A stretch of DNA of 64,000 nucleotides from Thermoplasmata archaeon. Lineage in GTDB: Archaea; Thermoplasmatota; Thermoplasmata; Thermoplasmatales; Thermoplasmataceae. The notes beneath the pieces were generated by a model. It ran no database searches. It was given only the letters and a program-made list of their open reading frames with translations, and had not been told where the DNA came from. Location: contig JAJZZE010000011.1 of assembly GCA_021797735.1 (NCBI GenBank), positions 18,573 to 82,572 of the forward strand, in the 5' to 3' direction. The translations under genes and the position numbers were made by a program. Shown here one piece after another: positions 32,952 through 58,746 of this stretch (its first letter is position 1; each line of letters begins with the position of its first letter).

Positions 32952-33095
32952 ATGATAAAAAAGAAAAAAGTTACGATAACACTGGACATAAATACATATA
33001 AAAGATTTAGGGAGAAATGTAAAAATGAAGATTTTAAAATGTCAACAAAGATAAACACGTTGATAAATCAATGGTTAAATAATGGTGTAAGATAA
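32952..33095 (+). CDS. Small ribbon-helix-helix (CopG-like) DNA-binding protein, 47 aa
   Basis: Short gene starting ATG 32952 and ending TAA 33093-33095. The protein starts MIKKKKVTITLDINTYKRFR: a basic beta strand (KKVTITLD) followed by helix 1, then a turn and helix 2 (STKINTLINQWLNN). This is the ribbon-helix-helix layout at the minimal length. Its stop overlaps the ATG of the methyltransferase by one base (TAATG), so the two are translationally coupled. By analogy with controller proteins of restriction-modification systems it probably represses or times the locus; an antitoxin role is less likely since no toxin is present. Confidence 0.8.
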   Translation: MIKKKKVTITLDINTYKRFREKCKNEDFKMSTKINTLINQWLNNGVR

Positions 33096-34003
33096 TGTAT
33101 AAAAATATGGAAAAAATAACACTTGATGATTATACTGAGTATGTAAAATTGCATAAAAATGTAACAATAGAAAAAAACATTATAAAAATAGGGGAAAAAA
33201 ATATTATAAATGAACTGGAGCCGGAAAATTTTAATCTGGGAATTGATAATGTCTGGAGCTTTCCTGATCGTGGGAAATGGTGTACACATTATTTAAATGC
33301 CAGATACAGAGGTAACTATGCACCACAGATTCCCAGGAATATAATTTTGAGATATTCAAAGGAAAATGATACTGTTCTTGATCCATTTGCCGGTTCCGGT
33401 ACAACATTAATAGAAGCAAAATTATTGAACCGGCATGGAATAGGAATAGATATAAATTTAGGATCCGTAATGATTGCAATTGATCGGCTAAAATTTAATA
33501 ATAACGATAATACTCTTGTAGACCAGGAAATTTTCCATGGTGATGCAAGGTTTTTGGATAAAATAGAAGATAATAGTATAGATTTGATAATGACACATCC
33601 ACCATATGCTAACATTATATCATACTCTGAAGAAAACATTATAGAAGATGATTTATCATCAATAAAATCTATAAATCAATACTATGAGGAAATGGATAAA
33701 GTTATTAAAGAGATATATAGGGTTCTTAAAAATGGCAAATACTGCGCAATTCTAATAGGTGATTCAAGAAAAAATGGTCATCATATCCCATTATCATTTA
33801 AAATAATGAATTTGTTTCTTAAAGAAGGATTTATTTTAAAGGAGGATATAATAAAAATACAGCATAATACCAAAACATGGAATTACTGGTCAAAAATGTC
33901 AATAAAAAATAATTTCTTGCTTCTGGCATATGAGCATTTATTTTTATTTGAGAAACCATTAAACAATGACCTGTCAAAATATAAATATAGTATGGAAAGT
34001 TAA
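33095..34003 (+). CDS. Site-specific DNA methyltransferase (N4-cytosine or N6-adenine)
   Basis: AdoMet-dependent DNA methylase (302 aa). Motif X/I region: APQIPRNIILRYSKENDT then VLDPFAGSGTTLIEAKLLNR (residues about 89-108), the AdoMet pocket. The catalytic motif is THPPYANI (about 166-173). Motif I before motif IV is the gamma/alpha-like order. The late block YCAILIGDSRKNGHHIPL is typical of this COG0863-like branch in prokaryotic restriction-modification loci. It is coupled to the ribbon-helix-helix gene and ends four bases inside the convergent Dam-like gene. The target sequence cannot be inferred. Confidence 0.88.
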   Translation: MYKNMEKITLDDYTEYVKLHKNVTIEKNIIKIGEKNIINELEPENFNLGIDNVWSFPDRGKWCTHYLNARYRGNYAPQIPRNIILRYSKENDTVLDPFAGSGTTLIEAKLLNRHGIGIDINLGSVMIAIDRLKFNNNDNTLVDQEIFHGDARFLDKIEDNSIDLIMTHPPYANIISYSEENIIEDDLSSIKSINQYYEEMDKVIKEIYRVLKNGKYCAILIGDSRKNGHHIPLSFKIMNLFLKEGFILKEDIIKIQHNTKTWNYWSKMSIKNNFLLLAYEHLFLFEKPLNNDLSKYKYSMES

Positions 34004-34851
34004 TAATTTGTTACTATTATCTCTTTTATACCGGTTCTCTTACTGGGATTGCTGTTAATAAATCTATTTACATTGACAATTGTTATATTGAATTCCTTAT
34101 ATAAATCAATTATATCATTACTATAAGAATTACTTAATATTAAATATACATTTTTATCCGCAAGTGATTTAAAAACGTTCAATAACCTTTTCTGTTCGTT
34201 ATAATCAAAACCATTTTTTGTATATCCTGTAAATGATGAGGTTTTATTTAATGGCTGATACGGCGGGTCAAAATAAACAAAGTCACCTTCTCCTGCATTT
34301 TTTACGGTTAATTCGAAATCGGAGTTTAATATCTCTATATTTTTTAGCATTATGCTGAAATCATGTATATTGTCATAATCGAACATGTTAACCGTTTTAT
34401 ATTTTCCAAATGGAACATTGAATTTGTTACTTGAATTCACACGCCATAGACCATTATATGCATGTTTATTGAAATATAAAAACAGCACAGACCTTTCTAT
34501 TTTATACTGGCCATTGCCAATAATTTCGTTATATCTATCTCTTAAACTATAATATAAATCACTATCATTTTTTAAATTATTATTCTTTATATAATCCAGA
34601 AAATCATTTAAACTACATTTTATTACCTCATAAAAATTTATCAATTCACTGTTTAAATCGGATATGGTTGCTTTATGTATTATGTTATTATTATATAAAT
34701 GAATTAAAAATGATGCCCCACCAGCAAACGGTTCATAATAATAATTGAATTTTTCTGGTATTTTTTTATATAATTCATCTATTATCTGTCTTTTCCCACC
34801 TGCCCATTTTAATAATGGCTTTACATTCCTGTATTCGTTAAGGTTAAGCAT
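34000..34851 (-). CDS. Dam/DpnM-like N6-adenine DNA methyltransferase
   Basis: D12-class N6-adenine methylase (283 aa). It starts MLNLNEYRNVKPLLKWAGGK, continues to the AdoMet motif YYEPFAGGASFLIHL (37-51) and has the catalytic FVYFDPPYQPLN (about 191-202). The D-P-P-Y tetrapeptide and K-W-A-G-G-K block are diagnostic for Dam-like enzymes, many of which methylate GATC. Convergent with the first methylase by a four-base overlap. Two different methylases side by side suggests a two-methylase restriction system, or one system plus an orphan Dam. Confidence 0.92.
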   Translation of the reverse strand: MLNLNEYRNVKPLLKWAGGKRQIIDELYKKIPEKFNYYYEPFAGGASFLIHLYNNNIIHKATISDLNSELINFYEVIKCSLNDFLDYIKNNNLKNDSDLYYSLRDRYNEIIGNGQYKIERSVLFLYFNKHAYNGLWRVNSSNKFNVPFGKYKTVNMFDYDNIHDFSIMLKNIEILNSDFELTVKNAGEGDFVYFDPPYQPLNKTSSFTGYTKNGFDYNEQKRLLNVFKSLADKNVYLILSNSYSNDIIDLYKEFNITIVNVNRFINSNPSKRTGIKEIIVTNY

Positions 34852-38181: not shown

Positions 38182-38640
38182 ATGGAAAAGGCAGTTTTTC
38201 TTGACCGTGACGGCACAATAAATTATGATAGTGGTTATACCCATAAAATAGAAGACCTGGAAATATATAATGATATAATACCGCTGATAAAAAAATATTA
38301 TGATGATAATTATCTGATAATAGTAATTTCAAACCAATCTGGCATAAATAGGGGATATTTCACAGTCAGTGATATGGATAAATTCAATAATGAAATAAAA
38401 AAAATATTTTTAAAAAATGGAATAGAGATAAAAGAGTTTTTTTACTGCCCGCACAGGCCAGAGGAGCATTGCCATTGCAGAAAGCCAGAAACAGGGTTAA
38501 TAGAAGAGGCTGTCAGAAAATACAACATAGATTTAAAAAACTCAGTTTTTATCGGAGATAGGGATGACATTGATGGCTTGCTCGCAAAAAAATTAAACAT
38601 AAAATTTATAAAAATACATGGTTATAACAGGTCATTTTAA
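38182..38640 (+). CDS. gmhB: HAD phosphatase, D-glycero-D-manno-heptose-1,7-bisphosphatase-like (GmhB)
   Basis: Histidinol-phosphatase/GmhB family HAD-IIIA phosphatase (152 aa). Motif I FLDRDGTIN (6-14) holds the nucleophile and acid Asp; motif II is VISNQSG; the zinc loop CPHRPEEHCHCRKP has three Cys and the His ligands; motif IV is IGDRDDIDG. It would remove a phosphate from heptose bisphosphate during nucleotide-heptose synthesis. A heptose-7-phosphate-kinase-like GHMP enzyme lies at 57763-58746, supporting a heptose pathway. A TATA-like TTTATAAT (38157-38164) is about 22 bases before the start. The end overlaps the convergent gene by nine bases. Confidence 0.85.
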   Translation: MEKAVFLDRDGTINYDSGYTHKIEDLEIYNDIIPLIKKYYDDNYLIIVISNQSGINRGYFTVSDMDKFNNEIKKIFLKNGIEIKEFFYCPHRPEEHCHCRKPETGLIEEAVRKYNIDLKNSVFIGDRDDIDGLLAKKLNIKFIKIHGYNRSF

Positions 38641-39921
38641 AACATCAAATGATATGTCATTGCCATCTGTATATGGTTTTATAATGTTATCCGCATACAG
38701 CCTTAAATTTTTATCCTCATTGTTCAGGTCATCGCAGAGCAATAATATTCCGATGCCCTTATTACCTGCATTATAATATTTGAAAAATGTGCTCCAGAAT
38801 TCATTATCATATGATAGGTTGCCGGATGCTGAAATAGGCAATATCTCATTTATATTGTATATTACCAGAAACGGATCTCTCAGATTTCCCATTTTTGTTA
38901 CTATCTCTGCCCATAATTTTTCCGCAAGTCCGGATGAATCCTCCCGTGATTCAACTATTCTTCTATTATAATAGTCTATGGATAGGTCAAATCTTGTTAT
39001 TTTATCTGTGCCCTCATTTTCTATAAAGCTTTTATACGGGTCAAATTTTATTGTTGTTAGCAGTACAATGTTTCTATTATTCCTTATGGATTCTCTCATT
39101 ATTTTTGTTGATAGCTCTATTTTACCATCTCCTTTTTTGCCTGTTATCAAAATTTTTTTTTCAGATATTGCCAGCGATATCAGTGTTTCTGATTTTGTAT
39201 CAAGCACAGCTCCATTATCGGATTCTTCCCTGTGAAATGTTATGGCCTTTTTTACCTCATTTTCACTGTTATTTTTTAATTGCCTGCTTGTATCACTTAT
39301 ACTGTAATCCATTTGAAGAAACTCAGGTATCTTTGCCTTATATGTGTACATCATATTACTGTTCTTAAATAATGGTTTTCTTATTTTTGATGAGTAAATC
39401 TTTTTCCTTTTATTTCTCATATTCTTCCATACAAGTTCGGTTTTTATGCAATCATTAAAAAGTGCACGCAAATCCTTATTTGCATTTCCATCCTTTAATT
39501 TCTTATATTTCTCATTTCTTTCCATTAGGATTATCTTTAATAAATATTTGTCCTCATTTATTTTATATATGCTTTCTTTTTCATTTTTGTTATAATACAG
39601 AAACCAGAATAATATGCCCTGGCCATTGCCTAACTTGTTTATAAAATCATGTAAGTTCTGAATTTCTATGCCGGTATCATAATAATCCTTATCCTTCTGG
39701 ATATCTGATACAGCAAAATCGGTCATTACTGGTAGGGAATCTATTGGATCGAGTTCAACAGATTTTTTTATAAACGAATATCTTGTACTTGTGCTTATAA
39801 ATATATGCAGTTTACCGTTGTCGTTAAAGTAAAATAAACCAAATTTCTGGCCTATCACGCTGGACAATCTCTGGCTATAATCCTCATCGCTTGATCCATT
39901 TACAACTTCATACCATGACAT
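38632..39921 (-). CDS. Degenerate HerA/VirB4-like P-loop protein, 429 aa
   Basis: The first 230 residues are an uncharacterised alpha/beta region (for example GLFYFNDNGKLHIFISTSTR at about 28-47). The second half resembles a HerA/FtsK-type ATPase whose active site has decayed: a Walker A-like LITGKKGDGKIELS lacks the Ser/Thr after Lys, the Walker B-like FLVIYNINE has Asn where Asp is expected, and the late GIGILLLCDDL corresponds to the sensor strand. Likely an ATPase relative that no longer hydrolyses ATP, or a very divergent one. It is divergent from the Hsp70-like gene with a 287-base gap. The function is unknown; the fold call is an inference. Confidence 0.6.
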   Translation of the reverse strand: MSWYEVVNGSSDEDYSQRLSSVIGQKFGLFYFNDNGKLHIFISTSTRYSFIKKSVELDPIDSLPVMTDFAVSDIQKDKDYYDTGIEIQNLHDFINKLGNGQGILFWFLYYNKNEKESIYKINEDKYLLKIILMERNEKYKKLKDGNANKDLRALFNDCIKTELVWKNMRNKRKKIYSSKIRKPLFKNSNMMYTYKAKIPEFLQMDYSISDTSRQLKNNSENEVKKAITFHREESDNGAVLDTKSETLISLAISEKKILITGKKGDGKIELSTKIMRESIRNNRNIVLLTTIKFDPYKSFIENEGTDKITRFDLSIDYYNRRIVESREDSSGLAEKLWAEIVTKMGNLRDPFLVIYNINEILPISASGNLSYDNEFWSTFFKYYNAGNKGIGILLLCDDLNNEDKNLRLYADNIIKPYTDGNDISFDVLK

Positions 39922-40208
39922 TTCTATACACCATTATAATATTTAGTTGTACTTAAATTTTGTCATGCAGACCGTTGTGGTCGTCAGCCGTTATTTTTTC
40001 CATGGAAAGCCAGTAAAAATCCTAAATTTTCCTGCTAACAGGAGGCGTTATGTAATGAAACCCACCCCAATCATATACACAGCAGGTTTAATGGTGGTTT
40101 ATGATCACTATAGCATTCAGAAGTCATACTAAATTGTAATTATTTGATACGATAAAATAAGCTTTTATATAGTAAAATATTATAATCATTGAATAAGCGG
40201 TGTAATAA
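39922..40208. promoter_or_regulatory. Divergent intergenic region of the Hsp70-like locus
   Basis: Holds a rightward promoter, TTTATATA (40164-40171), predicting a start near 40195 and a 15-base leader that contains GGTG (40199-40202) before ATG 40209. The middle is G/C-richer and has a 55-codon frame from ATG 39965 to 40132, which lacks homology I can recognise; it could be a small gene or residue of an older one. The leftward promoter lies near 39930-39960. Confidence 0.4.
40164..40171 (+). promoter_or_regulatory. TATA box of the Hsp70-like operon
   Basis: TTTATATA preceded by AAGC. Transcription about 26 bases downstream would start near 40194, leaving a short leader with GGTG (40199-40202) seven bases before ATG 40209. 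Unlike most genes here this operon would therefore have a leader with a ribosome site. Confidence 0.5.
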
Positions 40209-41963
40209 ATGGTTTTTTCTATAGGCATTGATATAGGTACAGAAAACTCTGCTGCAGCAGTCACAGGTGTAAATAATCATAAGTTAACCCAGATAATGCT
40301 GCCGGCGATAGAGGGCCCATCAATATACGGGAAATCCTTCCCATCCTATGTGATGATTGATAGTGAGTATAACATATATATTGGCAAAAGGGCAAAGGAT
40401 CTAAAGTTACTATACCCGGACTCTGTGTTTTCACATTTTAAAAGAAAAATGGGTACAGATTATTTATATAAAGCATATGATAAGTATTATACACCGCAGG
40501 AATTAACAGCACTTTTGCTGAAAAAAATAGGGAGTGATGCAGAATTATATATGAACGATAAAATAAAAGATGCTGTTATAACGGTTCCTGCATATTTTAA
40601 TGATAACCAGAGAAACGCAACAAAAACCGCCGCTGAAATAGCCGGCATAAAGGTAAAAAGGTTAATAAACGAGCCGACAGCTGCAGCAATAGCCTTTGGT
40701 TTTGAAAAACTTCTAAACAATGAAAATTATAGCAATAAAAGCATTCTTGTTTATGATATGGGTGCAGGAACGGTGGATGTAACAATAATAAATATAAATA
40801 AAAGGGTATTCAATGTATTATCAACGTCAGGCGACACCAATATAGGTGGAATAGATATGGATACTGCAATAAAACTGCATATAACCGAATTTTTAAAAAA
40901 TAATAACATATCTGTAAAAAATAATGATGAATATGATTCATACATTGATTCTATATCAGAAAATATAAAAATAAGATTATCCACATACGATTCCTATGAA
41001 GTTTATTTAAATGATTTATTAGGTAAGTTTTACAGGTTTAGCAATAAAATTATCTACAGGATAACAAGAAATGATTTTGAGCATTTAATAAAAGATACAG
41101 TGGATAAAACCATAAAAGCCATAAACATAGCACTGGAGAGGGCATCACTGACAAAGAAGGACATAGATGAATTAATATTAACAGGGGGTCCTACAAGGAT
41201 ACCATATGTAAGGAAAGCAATTGAAAATTATTTATCTTTAAAATCCATGAACGGCATTGACCCGATGGAAATAGTTGCCAGAGGGGCATCGATAATAGCA
41301 GCTGATAAAACATCCATAAGTGAAATAATTTCGGGCCCGATAAAATTTAATGATGTTACACCGTTAACCCTGGGCAATGTGATAATAAATGATGTTGTTG
41401 TCCCAATGATACCTGCAAATACAAAAGTGCCATGCAATGTGACAAGGCCATTTACAACAATAAAGGATTATCAAAAAGAGATAGAAATAAAAATAGTCCA
41501 GGGTGAAAGGCCCATGGGTTCGGATAATTCATTACTGGGCAATTTTATACTGCAGAATATAAAGCCGGCTCCAAGGGGGAAAGCGAGGATAGATGTTACA
41601 TATAAGGTTGACAAAAATGGCATTCTGCAAGTTTCAGCAGTTGATTCTATAACCGGTTCAAAAAAAGAAATAATTATAAAAAATTCAATAAATATAGATA
41701 AGGATAAAATAAAGAAAATAAAGGATGACCTTAAAAAGTATTCTATAGTGGATAATGAAAAGAAAAAGATGGCACTGATAATGAATTCTGCAGATGACCT
41801 GTTATACAGGTTAAAGGAACTTGCCAATAGCCAGTATAATTCCGATGTAAAATATTATAATATAAATACTGATATTTTAAATCTTGCAAAAAATATAAAG
41901 GAAAATAATATAAGTAACCTTGAAAAAATAGTAAAAAAAATAAAAAACGATTATAATATATGA
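40209..41963 (+). CDS. Divergent Hsp70 (DnaK-like) protein lacking the canonical linker
   Basis: Hsp70 homologue (584 aa). The nucleotide-binding domain is complete in outline: GIDIGTENS (6-14, where DnaK has G-T-T-N-S), HFKRKMG with Lys78 (76-82), RLINEPTAAAIAFG (151-164), DMGAGTVDVT (183-192, usually D-L-G-G-G-T-F-D) and LTGGPTRIP (324-332). The substrate domain is recognisable by VTPLTLG, VQGERPMGSDNSLLGNF and PAPRGKARIDVTY. The hydrophobic D-V-L-L-L-D linker that transmits the ATP signal is replaced by SGPIKFND (375-382). The lid is short. No DnaJ or GrpE is nearby. Its stop overlaps the start of a giant membrane protein, so it is probably a dedicated chaperone or regulator of that protein. 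Confidence 0.88.
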   Translation: MVFSIGIDIGTENSAAAVTGVNNHKLTQIMLPAIEGPSIYGKSFPSYVMIDSEYNIYIGKRAKDLKLLYPDSVFSHFKRKMGTDYLYKAYDKYYTPQELTALLLKKIGSDAELYMNDKIKDAVITVPAYFNDNQRNATKTAAEIAGIKVKRLINEPTAAAIAFGFEKLLNNENYSNKSILVYDMGAGTVDVTIININKRVFNVLSTSGDTNIGGIDMDTAIKLHITEFLKNNNISVKNNDEYDSYIDSISENIKIRLSTYDSYEVYLNDLLGKFYRFSNKIIYRITRNDFEHLIKDTVDKTIKAINIALERASLTKKDIDELILTGGPTRIPYVRKAIENYLSLKSMNGIDPMEIVARGASIIAADKTSISEIISGPIKFNDVTPLTLGNVIINDVVVPMIPANTKVPCNVTRPFTTIKDYQKEIEIKIVQGERPMGSDNSLLGNFILQNIKPAPRGKARIDVTYKVDKNGILQVSAVDSITGSKKEIIIKNSINIDKDKIKKIKDDLKKYSIVDNEKKKMALIMNSADDLLYRLKELANSQYNSDVKYYNINTDILNLAKNIKENNISNLEKIVKKIKNDYNI

Positions 41964-44900
41964 AAAGTTTTTTAATGCTTCTTTTATTCCCCAACATGAG
42001 ATACAAAATAATAGCAGCATTAATTATATTTATACTGCTATTTTCATATTTGAATCTAAATAATACTGATAATATTAATCCTGTGTATAATAATTACAGT
42101 AATTCTCCAGATTATTATATAATCAATAATAGCACCTCAACCCATATTAAATCTATAAATGGCCAGCTAAATATATTTACAGATAATTCAATACCATCAT
42201 ATTTAGGAGAGAATTTAAGTTATTATAATGAAACACTGTATTCATTTAATCTATCATGGAACTGCTATGGCAATGATGCCAGTACAGAGAATAACATTAT
42301 AATAAAACAGGGCAATCAAACATTATTAAAAATAAAATACGGCAAATCTAATAATTGTGATACATATATAACGGGCAAAAACAGTTTTAAAAATCTTATA
42401 AAAATTAATAAAATGAATCATAATTATTCATTACATTTTATTTTTGATAAAAATATTAATAACTATGCATACGTTTTTATTAAAAATAGCTCATTTGAAA
42501 TGCCATTGAAAATTGGATTGATGAATAAATACCATTACGGCAATATATCAATGCTTTTTGGAGGCAAATATTCGAATCAGACCGTATCAGAACTAAATGT
42601 GAAAAAATATAATAAAATAATAATGCCATCGAATAAAAATATAAAATTCAATTTAAGCAGGAATAATATTAAAAATAGTTTCTATAGCCCCATATCTATG
42701 AATTCATCTATGGTTATTGACCATAACCTTAATTCATTAATATATTTAAACAGTAATTATGATATTGTTATATACAATTATTATAATAATTCGTTTAAAA
42801 TTTTATATAATAACCGGCTTGGCAATGTATCATACAGATCATCAATAAAGCTGAGCAACAGCCTGATATATTATTTTTATAATGGAAATATTAGCATAAT
42901 AAAAATTAATTTATATAATTTGAGTTTAAAAACATTAGGATTAAGGTCATACAGTGAAAACCATTTACTGTACTATAGATCTAATTATGTATTATACAAT
43001 AAAAATTCAGATTTTACAGTATATCATAATAATGAGATAAAAAATATCTCACTGGGTTCGGATCTAATACAGGCAGATATAAAAAATAATATAAATATAA
43101 TAACATATAATAAATCAACAAATTCCATGTATTATTATGATATAAACAGTACATATAGATTAAAATTTATAAAAAATGAGACAGCATATGGACTTCATTT
43201 AAAATATGTTCATATCAATAATGGACTGTCTTCCACAATATATAAAAATTTCACAGAGGAAAACTATCTCAATAATATATTTTACAGTATAAAAAACGTA
43301 AACAATAATTTATTTTCTTCAGGCAAAGATCTATATATCTATAAAAATAACAAAACATACAACACATCAATAAGCCATGAGAATTACTTTGTTTCGTACA
43401 ACAACAATTCAATAATGGTTTATAATAACCATGACCTGCTTATTTATAACGTTACAGATATCTACTCGCAGTATCATATAAAAATCAATTCAGAAAAACA
43501 GAAAATATATTTTAATAAAACATTTGTATCCTTTAATATAACCTCAAAACTCGATTATAAAATAATAATAAATACTGGAAATTACACCATTAAATTAAAT
43601 AATATAAATTATACCTATATAAAAAATGTAAGTAATGCCACAGATAAATTAAATGCAACAGCAGTAAATTTAGCCGGTTATAAATATAATTATCTATACG
43701 GTTTTGCATATGATAATAAAATACCGGCAGTATCCACAAATCCTGTTAATAATTCGTTTATAAATAATAAATATAATATAAGTTTTAATGTAAATTCAGA
43801 ATTTAAGGAAATATATTTCAATTCCTCATATTTTAATTATAACTTTGATAAAAATAATACACTTAAGATAAATCTGGGCAATTTCTATGGAGCATTAAAA
43901 ATCAATGTATCACTTGTAAATATATATAGTATAAAATTTCATTACAATTTAACCTATCACATAATAAGGGTTAATTTATCATCATTAAATATAAATATAC
44001 ATAATAATGAATATTTCAATAAAAAATATGTAAATCTAACATGGAATCATATAGGCAATGCATCATCCTACGAAATAATATATAATAATACGGTGAAAAC
44101 AAAATATAATTATTATAACCTCACATTGAATAATGGTAATTATTCTATTGATTTTATTATAAATTTAATAAATGGCACATCAATAAATTATAATAAATAT
44201 GAAATACACATAGTAACATACAAACCTGCGATAAGCTATTCTATAAATTCGCTATATTTTTCATTCAATAACAATTCAAAAAATAATCATATAAATTTAA
44301 CTGTAATAACAAACATGACATCATCAATATATGTAAATATACATACTGGCAGTAAAATATTTTATAGCCATTCAGGTGAATATACAGGCACATCATTAAA
44401 AAACCTGTATCTGGGCAGCGGAATATATAATATTTCCATTATGGCGGAAAACAGTGCAGGTTTAACATCATACAGAAATATAACAATTCATGTAAACAAT
44501 ACAGTTCCAGAAAAAATACTGGTCAAAAATAGTACAGTATACACAGATAAAAATGCATCAATAAGCATTCCAAATTATAATAGCAGTTTAAAATATTATT
44601 ATATAATCAATAATAATATTACGGGCTATACAAAAAATATTACATTCAGGCACAATGGAATTTATAAAATAAAGATACTTGATGAAAATAAATATGGAAG
44701 CTTTAATTATACATATGTAAAAATATATTATTTTACCAGTAAACCGGGAATTGCATTAAATTATAAGATAATAAATAATACCGTGAACCTGAATTATACA
44801 TTTAAGGATTTTATAAATAAATTTAGCATAGTTTCAGACAATGGCTCCATTAATTATTATAATATAACATCGGATAATTTTAATTTAACAGAGAAATTCT

Positions 44901-45484
44901 CCAGGAATGGTCTTTATTATACTAATATAAGTGTTACAGATATTTTTGGCAATAATAATTATTATAATAAAACATTCAATATAAGCTATTTCACAGAGAT
45001 CCAACATGCAGATATAGTGGAAAATAATAATAATGTATATATAAAAATAAGTGGCAACAACACAAAAAATGTTACAGTAGAATGGTTTGTAAATAATAAA
45101 TTTTATAATTCTGGCAATAAACTAAACAGACCTTTACCGGCTGGCATAGACAGAATTACTGCAAAAATCGTTTATGATGGCAAAACCATTAATGTGCATA
45201 AAACAGTGGTAGTTCCCGGCAATATTCCATATTATATTTCGGCACTATTCATATCTATACTGGTTTTTATATTTCTTTTAAATACTATATATTACGATAA
45301 CAGGAGCGTTGAAAATATAATAAAAAACGCAAATGGAAAAACAGTAAAGGCCCTGATCAGGGAGTCAAAAAGGGATAGAATAAATAAGCATTACCTTATG
45401 TCAAAAATAAAACTAATGGAAAAAAATAATAAACTGTCAATAGAGAAGGACCTTGACAACAGGAAATTTATCGTTATAAAATAA
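41960..45484 (+). CDS. Giant Asn/Tyr-rich surface protein with two membrane anchors, 1174 aa
   Basis: A short N-terminal segment and one helix (YKIIAALIIFILLFSYLNL, about residues 14-32), then about 1080 extracellular residues rich in Asn, Tyr, Ser, Ile and Lys with dozens of Asn-x-Ser/Thr sites and a beta-sandwich-like pattern (for example PVNNSFINNKYNISF near 594-608 looks like the start of an Ig-like domain). A C-terminal helix (YYISALFISILVFIFLLNTI, about 1091-1110) and a basic cytoplasmic tail of about 63 residues follow. The tail, KTVKALIRESKRDRINKHYL onward, could form a small winged helix. The ATG overlaps the Hsp70 stop (ATGA), so the two are coupled. Family unknown; an adhesin or receptor is possible. 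Confidence 0.85.
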   Translation: MKSFLMLLLFPNMRYKIIAALIIFILLFSYLNLNNTDNINPVYNNYSNSPDYYIINNSTSTHIKSINGQLNIFTDNSIPSYLGENLSYYNETLYSFNLSWNCYGNDASTENNIIIKQGNQTLLKIKYGKSNNCDTYITGKNSFKNLIKINKMNHNYSLHFIFDKNINNYAYVFIKNSSFEMPLKIGLMNKYHYGNISMLFGGKYSNQTVSELNVKKYNKIIMPSNKNIKFNLSRNNIKNSFYSPISMNSSMVIDHNLNSLIYLNSNYDIVIYNYYNNSFKILYNNRLGNVSYRSSIKLSNSLIYYFYNGNISIIKINLYNLSLKTLGLRSYSENHLLYYRSNYVLYNKNSDFTVYHNNEIKNISLGSDLIQADIKNNINIITYNKSTNSMYYYDINSTYRLKFIKNETAYGLHLKYVHINNGLSSTIYKNFTEENYLNNIFYSIKNVNNNLFSSGKDLYIYKNNKTYNTSISHENYFVSYNNNSIMVYNNHDLLIYNVTDIYSQYHIKINSEKQKIYFNKTFVSFNITSKLDYKIIINTGNYTIKLNNINYTYIKNVSNATDKLNATAVNLAGYKYNYLYGFAYDNKIPAVSTNPVNNSFINNKYNISFNVNSEFKEIYFNSSYFNYNFDKNNTLKINLGNFYGALKINVSLVNIYSIKFHYNLTYHIIRVNLSSLNINIHNNEYFNKKYVNLTWNHIGNASSYEIIYNNTVKTKYNYYNLTLNNGNYSIDFIINLINGTSINYNKYEIHIVTYKPAISYSINSLYFSFNNNSKNNHINLTVITNMTSSIYVNIHTGSKIFYSHSGEYTGTSLKNLYLGSGIYNISIMAENSAGLTSYRNITIHVNNTVPEKILVKNSTVYTDKNASISIPNYNSSLKYYYIINNNITGYTKNITFRHNGIYKIKILDENKYGSFNYTYVKIYYFTSKPGIALNYKIINNTVNLNYTFKDFINKFSIVSDNGSINYYNITSDNFNLTEKFSRNGLYYTNISVTDIFGNNNYYNKTFNISYFTEIQHADIVENNNNVYIKISGNNTKNVTVEWFVNNKFYNSGNKLNRPLPAGIDRITAKIVYDGKTINVHKTVVVPGNIPYYISALFISILVFIFLLNTIYYDNRSVENIIKNANGKTVKALIRESKRDRINKHYLMSKIKLMEKNNKLSIEKDLDNRKFIVIK

Positions 45485-45541: not shown

Positions 45542-45993
45542 ATGGAAAATAAAAATTTCTTCTGTGCAGTAACCGGAAGTGAAATGGGTTATGATGAGGA
45601 TATTTTCTTATATTTTTCAATTATGAAAGAGTTAGCATCGTTGATATCTCAGATTAAAGATCTCGATAAGGAGTATAAAGATTATGATACACTGATAAAA
45701 ATAGCATATAATCTGCCTGATTCAGGATATGATAATATAGGAATTATAAGTAATCTTGAGGATTTTAACCCCGATAATTCTTACTGGGCGGATGAAATTT
45801 AGCAATATGTGATCAGGCATCAAAATTATTATACCTGGCATATTCAAAGGCATCACAGGCACTGCATTACTTTGCAAAATTATATGGTGATGAAAGGTTT
45901 AGTGGGATTTTTAATGATGAAAATTTAATCATATTAAAGGATCTAATGAAATTCTTTTTATTTAGATTCGACCAGATTAATAACTGTTTATAA
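45542..45993 (+). pseudogene. Small hypothetical gene with a frameshift
   Basis: Frame one starts ATG 45542 and runs 86 codons to TAG 45800-45802 (MENKNFFCAVTGSEMGYDED at the start). The neighbouring frame is closed up to TGA 45793 and then open to TAA 45991, reading LAICDQASKLLYLAYSKASQ and onward to a protein-like end. Joined near 45795, the two make a coherent acidic, helical protein of about 147 residues. A one-base indel or sequencing error is the simplest cause. It lies 57 bases after the giant surface protein and may belong to that locus. No motif recognised. Confidence 0.55.
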
Positions 45994-57762: not shown

Positions 57763-58746
57763 TTATAATTTTACTATTCTTGTACCGGTACTGTCAAATT
57801 TTAACCTTATAACAAAATCGGATAAGCCCATCATGGATTTCTGCAGGTAATGTATATTATTATAATCTGTATATAATAAAATAAATCCCTGTGAACCACC
57901 GCCCAGAAGTTTTTCAGCCTTTGATCCGTGTTCATGTGCGTATTTTATTATTTTTTCTATGTTATCGTTTGTTACCATATTGCCCAGAGTTTTTTTAACT
58001 GCCCAGCCCTCATTTACTATACTGCAAAAATCATTTATATCATTATTTTTTACGGCATTACGCATATTATACGCCAGACCCTTTAATTTTAATAATTTAT
58101 TTATTATTTCAGTATCATCGTTTCCAGATTTTTCTGCCTGTTCACGGAGGGCATCAGAGCTTTCCCTGGTTTTTCCTGTATATACAAGCAATAATGATTT
58201 TTCTATATCATTTATAAATTCATTATCAGTATCAAACCTTTCTGCAATTTCCCCATAATTTAAAAATTCCATAAATTTAAATCCCCCAATGGATATTGCA
58301 TATGGATCCTGTTTGCCCAGAATTATTTTAAAATCATCCTTTTCCGTCTTATATGAATCATATGCCAGATCATAATTGTTAATATCAACATTTTTTATAC
58401 TGTATATGATTTTTAGTAAACCATTTAGTAGTGCTGAACTTGAACCAAGTCCGGATCCGGGAGGGGCATCACTATTCATTATCAATCTACCGGTTTTTAT
58501 GCCATTTTTTGTAAATAAGTTTATTATATTGTTCTCCATTGGACTGTTATCGGATGATATTAACGCACTTTTTAAAAAATCCCTTGATGATATTTCCAGT
58601 GGCAATTTATCGTCTATGTACCTTATCATTATTCCCCGGTCTATTGTTGTATTAAAAACTGCACCGCCATACTTCTCAAAGAATGGGCTTATATCCGTGC
58701 CTCCGCCTGCAAAACTTACTCTTAATGGGCTATATACACTGATCAT
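57763..58746 (-). CDS. GHMP kinase, D-glycero-D-manno-heptose 7-phosphate kinase-like
   Basis: GHMP-family sugar kinase (327 aa). The start MISVYSPLRVSFAGGGTDIS (with the G-G-G-T-D block) is typical of HddA/LmbP-type heptose or fucose kinases. The ATP loop is APPGSGLGSSSALLNGLLKI (about 94-113), and KLLGGGSQGFILLY near the end is motif 3. With the GmhB-like phosphatase at 38182 it suggests synthesis of a nucleotide-activated heptose for surface glycans. Fucokinase or another sugar-1-kinase is the alternative. Confidence 0.83.
   Translation of the reverse strand: MISVYSPLRVSFAGGGTDISPFFEKYGGAVFNTTIDRGIMIRYIDDKLPLEISSRDFLKSALISSDNSPMENNIINLFTKNGIKTGRLIMNSDAPPGSGLGSSSALLNGLLKIIYSIKNVDINNYDLAYDSYKTEKDDFKIILGKQDPYAISIGGFKFMEFLNYGEIAERFDTDNEFINDIEKSLLLVYTGKTRESSDALREQAEKSGNDDTEIINKLLKLKGLAYNMRNAVKNNDINDFCSIVNEGWAVKKTLGNMVTNDNIEKIIKYAHEHGSKAEKLLGGGSQGFILLYTDYNNIHYLQKSMMGLSDFVIRLKFDSTGTRIVKL

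Follow-up and report, generated by a model that had tools for sequence, protein, structure and literature searches.

The 64,000-nucleotide stretch of DNA analysed here (the window) encodes an Hsp70 protein directly followed by a very large surface protein, which raises the question of what this Hsp70 does and with which partner. Hsp70s are thought to need J-domain proteins, and a VLLLD linker for coupling. The original prediction was that this Hsp70 has lost its linker and is either a dedicated chaperone of the surface protein or a sensor bound to its cytoplasmic tail. The window derives from an assembly (G000) of 1.97 Mb in 57 contigs, 99% complete, in a genus that includes Ferroplasma acidarmanus. 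We surveyed 117 genomes of the order and a phylum sample of 293–390 genomes. The features discussed below are as follows.

38182..38640, + strand: HAD-family phosphatase that overlaps C0 convergently; a conserved neighbour in Ferroplasma, not in the Acidiplasma loci
38632..39921, − strand: C0, the divergent gene, 429 aa (head-to-head in 12/12; co-occurrence in 117 genomes; AF2; Foldseek)
39118..39141, − strand: degenerate Walker A of C0, GKKGDGK then I (alignment of C0 members)
39922..40208, no strand: C0/DnaK2 divergent intergenic region (window, G065 and G063 sequences)
40209..41963, + strand: DnaK2, second Hsp70, 584 aa (Pfam HSP70 E 7e-129; tree; dN/dS)
41340..41354, + strand: remodelled interdomain linker IKFN-D, at E. 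coli 389-VLLL-D-393 (DnaK alignment)
41960..45484, + strand: giant surface-protein ORF as called, 1174 aa (probable real start 41993)
45296..45481, + strand: winged-helix-like cytoplasmic domain of the giant, the 'basic tail' (AF2, Foldseek)

A second Hsp70 in two archaeal genera

The Hsp70 reading frame is genuine (PF00012), and its NBD, SBD-beta and shortened lid align with those of E. coli DnaK, as expected for the superfamily. Phylogeny sets it apart as a divergent, fast-evolving second Hsp70, which we call DnaK2, separate from the normal dnaK of the same genome. The latter encodes a 638 aa protein (DnaK1) with the linker KDIVLLD and lies between grpE and dnaJ on contig C15, so the possible objection that DnaK2 is the organism's only DnaK does not apply. 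DnaK2 is 44% identical to DnaK1 and approximately 42–46% identical to thermoplasmatal DnaKs, and scores below the cut-offs of both the DnaK equivalog model TIGR02350 (452.9 vs 822.55 bits) and the HscA model (378.4 vs 708.55 bits).

Orthologues of 565–584 aa are present in 12 of the 117 genomes of the order, all in two genera of acid-loving archaea, the Ferroplasma-type one (g1) and Acidiplasma (g2), and none was found elsewhere in the phylum among the 293–390 genomes sampled. In a DnaK tree with bacteria represented by E. coli alone, the DnaK2 proteins group together in a single clade (support 100/100) that branches from within Thermoplasmatales DnaK, with a stem of 2.5 changes per site; the exact sister of this long branch is unreliable. 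As placed by this tree, DnaK2 is a lineage-specific duplicate of Thermoplasmatales DnaK, and a horizontal origin from outside the phylum is not favoured, since DnaK2 is nested within the DnaKs of the order.

The dN/dS values are 0.083 for DnaK2 (range 0.06–0.10), 0.054 for C0 (0.05–0.10 for the two together), 0.040 for the housekeeping DnaK and 0.157 for the giant. The catalytic and switch residues D8, K70, P143, R151, E171, D194 and T199 (E. coli DnaK numbering) are invariant in all DnaK2 proteins with data. By these measures the ATPase core of DnaK2 is under purifying selection.

Linker and co-chaperone surfaces

An alignment of 13 DnaK2 proteins with 25 further DnaKs bears on the motifs from which the original prediction was drawn. 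GTENS, DMGAGT and SGPIKFND are all present in DnaK2, but GTENS is a weak sign of divergence, as DnaK1 has GTSNS and the position varies between E, Q, S and G among DnaK2 proteins. Loss of the linker proved mistaken: IKFN-D aligns with VLLL-D, with hydrophobic residues still at 389 and 391 and an invariant D393. The linker is nevertheless unusual, as had been claimed. Position 389 is I/V, 390 is K/R (12/13), 391 is hydrophobic, 392 is polar (13/13) and 393 is D (13/13), and this hydrophobic-K/R-hydrophobic-polar-D pattern replaces the VLLLD sequence in nearly all of the 13 orthologues, such that DnaK2 does not have the hydrophobic linker of housekeeping Hsp70s. In DnaK, the stimulation of the ATPase by the linker is abolished or much reduced when the linker hydrophobics or D393 are replaced (PMC8215388). 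As D393 and the alternating pattern of hydrophobic residues are kept, the alignment suggests that interdomain coupling in DnaK2 is altered rather than absent.

The surfaces that DnaK uses with its co-chaperones have changed as well. The GrpE signature GPKH (residues 290–295), near-invariant in DnaK1, is absent from 13/13 DnaK2 proteins. Residue 206 is acidic in 24/24 DnaK1 sequences and never in DnaK2, where it is neutral or basic, and E/Q at residue 217 is replaced by N, S, A, K or R. The J-domain contacts DnaK through its H33, at L391/L392, and its D35, at R167 (PMC13012618); R167 is lost in 8/13 DnaK2 proteins and N170 in 7/13. The window's own copy keeps R167, N170 and T173, and some J-domain contact may survive in it. 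Little is left of the R56-E264 bridge, I/V stands in place of the arch residue A429, and there is no disordered tail; the SBD-beta core is conserved. These changes, in the GrpE signature, J-domain contacts, bridges, arch and tail, resemble the published criteria for HscA and HscC (PMC8215388). As read from the alignment, most of the surfaces through which DnaK works with DnaJ and GrpE are missing from DnaK2, among them the GrpE signature and the acidic patch for the J-domain.

The statement that DnaJ and GrpE are lacking holds for the window but not for the genome, which has the grpE-dnaK-dnaJ cluster and, on contig C56 (L067:1492-2217, − strand), a second J-domain protein of 241 aa with a C-terminal J-domain and an intact HPD motif. 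We rejected the latter as a partner of DnaK2: every Ferroplasma has it, even G067, which lacks DnaK2, as does one further genus that has no DnaK2, and it is absent from Acidiplasma, in which DnaK2 is present and the housekeeping DnaJ is the sole J-domain protein. No dedicated J-protein for DnaK2 was found in the Ferroplasma and Acidiplasma genomes, and inspection of ORFs revealed neither HscB nor IscU among the neighbours of DnaK2 in any locus.

The giant surface protein and the divergent gene C0

The giant ORF is real and the ATGA overlap with the Hsp70 ORF is present in the window sequence. The predicted protein has the two strongly hydrophobic segments described previously (residues ~13–35 and ~1088–1112) and contains 18% Asn and 10.5% Tyr. 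The proposed translational coupling does not survive comparison with two close relatives, G065 and G063, whose Hsp70s are 97% and 86% identical to DnaK2 of G000, as the overlap is found in G000 only. In G065 one more T in a T-run just past the overlap closes the ATG frame of the giant, and G063 has no start at the ATGA position. The three genomes do share an aligned start codon (ATG in G000 and G065, GTG in G063), which corresponds to window position 41993, approximately 30 nt past the Hsp70 stop, and is the probable real start.

Relatives of the giant, mostly full length, are encoded in 60 of the 117 genomes, spanning 22 genera, and at least 48 of these genomes lack DnaK2. The survey of gene neighbourhoods found the Hsp70 and giant genes adjacent in G000, G065 and G063 and nowhere else; they are ~3.5 kb apart in G068, ~30 kb apart in G060 and G061, and on different contigs in some Ferroplasma, and no giant is detectable in Acidiplasma G042, which has DnaK2. 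In several other genera the giant adjoins genes that we take to be GAPDH- and RadA-like. We therefore rejected the pair as a conserved unit, given adjacency in three close relatives only, an overlap that is not conserved and giants that mostly occur without DnaK2. The proposal that the giant is the client of DnaK2, or that DnaK2 is a sensor bound to its tail, loses its footing with the unconserved pairing and an overlap private to G000.

The tail is basic in composition (17 K/R, 8 D/E), as had been noted, but rather than a peptide it is predicted to be a winged-helix domain, conserved across the giant family. An AF2 model (pLDDT 86.5, from only 3 sequences) has an H-H-H-E-E arrangement of three helices and a beta hairpin, and its nearest solved folds in Foldseek are MarR- and Fur-type winged helices (probability up to 0.99, TM 0.6–0.75, E > 0.05). 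The giants are a large Thermoplasmatales surface-protein family with a predicted cytoplasmic winged-helix domain (window 45296-45481), possibly membrane-bound one-component regulators. Their exteriors give weak Ig/PKD-like matches only, in some relatives.

An 86-aa ORF 3′ of the giant (45542-45802) is not matched by any relative at the syntenic loci in the sister genomes. Neither G065 nor G063 has, at its syntenic locus, homologues of two convergent DNA-methyltransferase-like genes (33095-34851), and the genes look like a recent insertion. The gene at 57763-58746 encodes a GHMP kinase, presumably resembling heptose-7-phosphate kinase. Together with the HAD phosphatase (38182-38640) it is perhaps involved in heptose glycan synthesis near the DnaK2 locus; a heptose cluster has been reported from a related archaeon (PMC3750248).

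The conserved neighbour of DnaK2 is the divergent gene upstream, C0, which the original prediction did not mention. C0 and DnaK2 are head-to-head in 12/12 genomes, with flanking genes that differ between the two genera. In the window, G065 and G063, the intergenic region (39922..40208) has a conserved TATA-like TTTTATA and a GGTG ribosome-binding-like motif before DnaK2, and a GGTG-like motif before C0 (read by eye, no statistics). A profile search for full-length C0 identified the same 12 of 117 genomes as have DnaK2 and none of the 105 others; the G062 copy is interrupted by undetermined bases. No C0 was found elsewhere in the phylum sample of 293–390 genomes or in viral contigs, and a pattern-limited search of a collection of ~85,000 species with the C0 profile returned only Ferroplasma- and Acidiplasma-type loci. 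Since C0 and DnaK2 share one locus, this co-occurrence amounts to one or a few evolutionary events. We did not count their joint absence from G067 as evidence for pairing, as the neighbouring HAD gene was also not found there and a gap or a larger deletion is possible. In a mirror-tree comparison the correlation of C0 with DnaK2 (r 0.84) is not separated from that of the C0-DnaK1 control (r 0.81).

Searches of Pfam, NCBIfam and PDB by sequence gave nothing significant for C0, and a PADLOC match to RtcR (E 2e-4) was set aside as a weak P-loop match. The C-terminal 160 residues are modelled by AF2 as a RecA-like domain (pLDDT ~72), for which Foldseek returns KaiC, Rho and RecA at probabilities of at least 0.9 but with weak E values of 0.003–0.05; the N-terminal domain gave no confident model (pLDDT mostly < 50). 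C0 may share a RecA-like fold and the P-loop position with the P-loop proteins of the KaiC/RecA superfamily, but differs from them in its Foldseek E values above 0.001 and in belonging to no Pfam family. Neither a functional Walker A (GxxxxGK[ST]) nor a clear Walker B acid is present: the GK is followed by I or L, with S/T absent in all members. C0 is for these reasons probably a pseudo-ATPase.

Domains related to C0 occur in other settings. A 900-aa protein of G000 (L107:5521-8223, − strand, contig C3), also found in G063, has an N-terminal AAA_15/OLD-type ATPase (AriA/GajA/Old-like by PADLOC) and a C-terminal domain homologous to the RecA-like domain of C0 (E 1e-24). Two further families of the order (L110:1761-4057 and L111:6095-8439) have a coiled-coil protein of 276–278 aa with a C0-like domain, whose gene directly precedes one for a membrane glycosyltransferase of family 2; the L111 domain has an intact Walker A. 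A locus of Acidiplasma G042 (L109:7236-13318, − strand) encodes a 646-aa protein with the N-terminal domain of C0 beside a GT2 glycosyltransferase; the neighbouring 845-aa protein has what we take to be a vWA-like N-terminus. This locus is possibly a second C0-related system.

A probable specialist and its relation to known Hsp70s

We favour, at a probability of roughly 0.55, a reading of these genes in which Ferroplasma and Acidiplasma use DnaK2 as a specialised Hsp70, with C0 as its co-worker or its target and away from the DnaJ/GrpE cycle. DnaK2 arose from a duplicated DnaK. The ATP-hydrolysing core and the peptide-binding domain were retained, but the linker was rebuilt, as were the peptide arch and the surfaces for co-chaperones; DnaK2 has for this reason probably left the cycle of the housekeeping DnaJ and GrpE. 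Its functional partner would most likely be the C0 product, with which it may interact physically, C0 being either a dedicated client or a regulator of the DnaK2 cycle, so that either might act on the other. The original prediction stands in part: this is a divergent second Hsp70, probably a specialised one, but the link to the giant falls away. A stronger form, for which we would give only about one chance in five, is that a dedicated RecA/KaiC-like pseudo-ATPase, in place of a J-domain protein and GrpE, controls the ATPase and allosteric cycle, with the linker re-engineered.

Comparable weight falls on a more conventional role, that of an additional general-purpose Hsp70 for stress or acid conditions, still served by the DnaJ and GrpE present in these genomes, with C0 merely co-regulated from the shared intergenic region. 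The retention of D393 in 13/13 proteins, of R167/N170/T173 in the window copy and of the SBD-beta core is consistent with such a role, but the GrpE signature is lost and residue 392 polar in 13/13, 8/13 lack R167, and neutral or basic residues now occupy the acidic J-domain patch. Somewhat less probable is that C0 is an aggregation-prone or assembly-dependent client that DnaK2 binds and releases without feedback on the ATPase cycle. The head-to-head pairing and perfect co-occurrence agree with this, and Hsp70s with a single client are known in HscA and Ssq1 (PMC9596805), but we identified no short peptide motif in C0, and the present evidence fits a regulator equally well.

Service to the giant, as its chaperone or as a sensor on its tail, is improbable. 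The genes are adjacent and co-oriented in the three close relatives, but they are apart in the other genomes, the giant is common without DnaK2, G042 has DnaK2 with no detectable giant, and the giant's exterior presumably lies outside the cell, beyond the reach of a cytoplasmic Hsp70. Least credible of all is a decaying paralogue drifting to a pseudogene; the long stem, and pairwise distances ~4.7 times those of DnaK1, could be taken that way, but dN/dS is low, the ORFs are complete and the catalytic residues are invariant across two genera.

The favoured reading, a specialist working with or on C0, has parallels among known Hsp70s. HscA, the bacterial Fe-S cluster Hsp70 that acts with HscB on the client IscU, is likewise a paralogue without GrpE-binding features or bridging salt bridges, with a changed peptide arch and no long disordered tail (PMC8215388); DnaK2 differs in falling below the HscA cut-off, in its rebuilt linker, in the lack of an HscB-like J-protein next door and in its origin inside archaeal DnaK. 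Bacterial HscC, which works with DjlB/DjlC, is similar in length (550–580 aa, vs 565–584 aa), also lacks the GrpE signature and has an altered J-domain contact loop (PMC8215388), a matter of similarity only; no dedicated J-domain protein was found for DnaK2, and the tree puts DnaK2 inside thermoplasmatal DnaK with no long-separate branch. Yeast mitochondrial Ssq1, specialised for Isu, is also a lineage-specific duplicate of a general Hsp70 turned specialist (PMC9596805), but still uses a J-protein (Hsc20), whereas the candidate partner of DnaK2 has no J-domain. On this reading DnaK2 would be convergent with HscA, HscC and Ssq1. By sequence and phylogeny it is a member of none of them and arose independently in archaea; it stands outside the HscA and DnaK families because it falls below both equivalog cut-offs and the tree places its origin in archaea. 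No specialised Hsp70 that originated in archaea is known to us as described, from a limited literature search that also yielded no useful report on Ferroplasma DnaK.

If the cycle of DnaK2 is indeed governed by C0, this would be an Hsp70 machine that needs no J-protein and has a re-engineered linker. One lineage has changed the linker and both co-chaperone interfaces of an Hsp70 with the catalytic core still under selection, and the unmodified parent gene remains in the same genome. The parent gene thus offers a clean comparison for asking which residues of the linker, and which partners, are needed by an Hsp70, and whether a protein without a J-domain can do the job of a J-protein.
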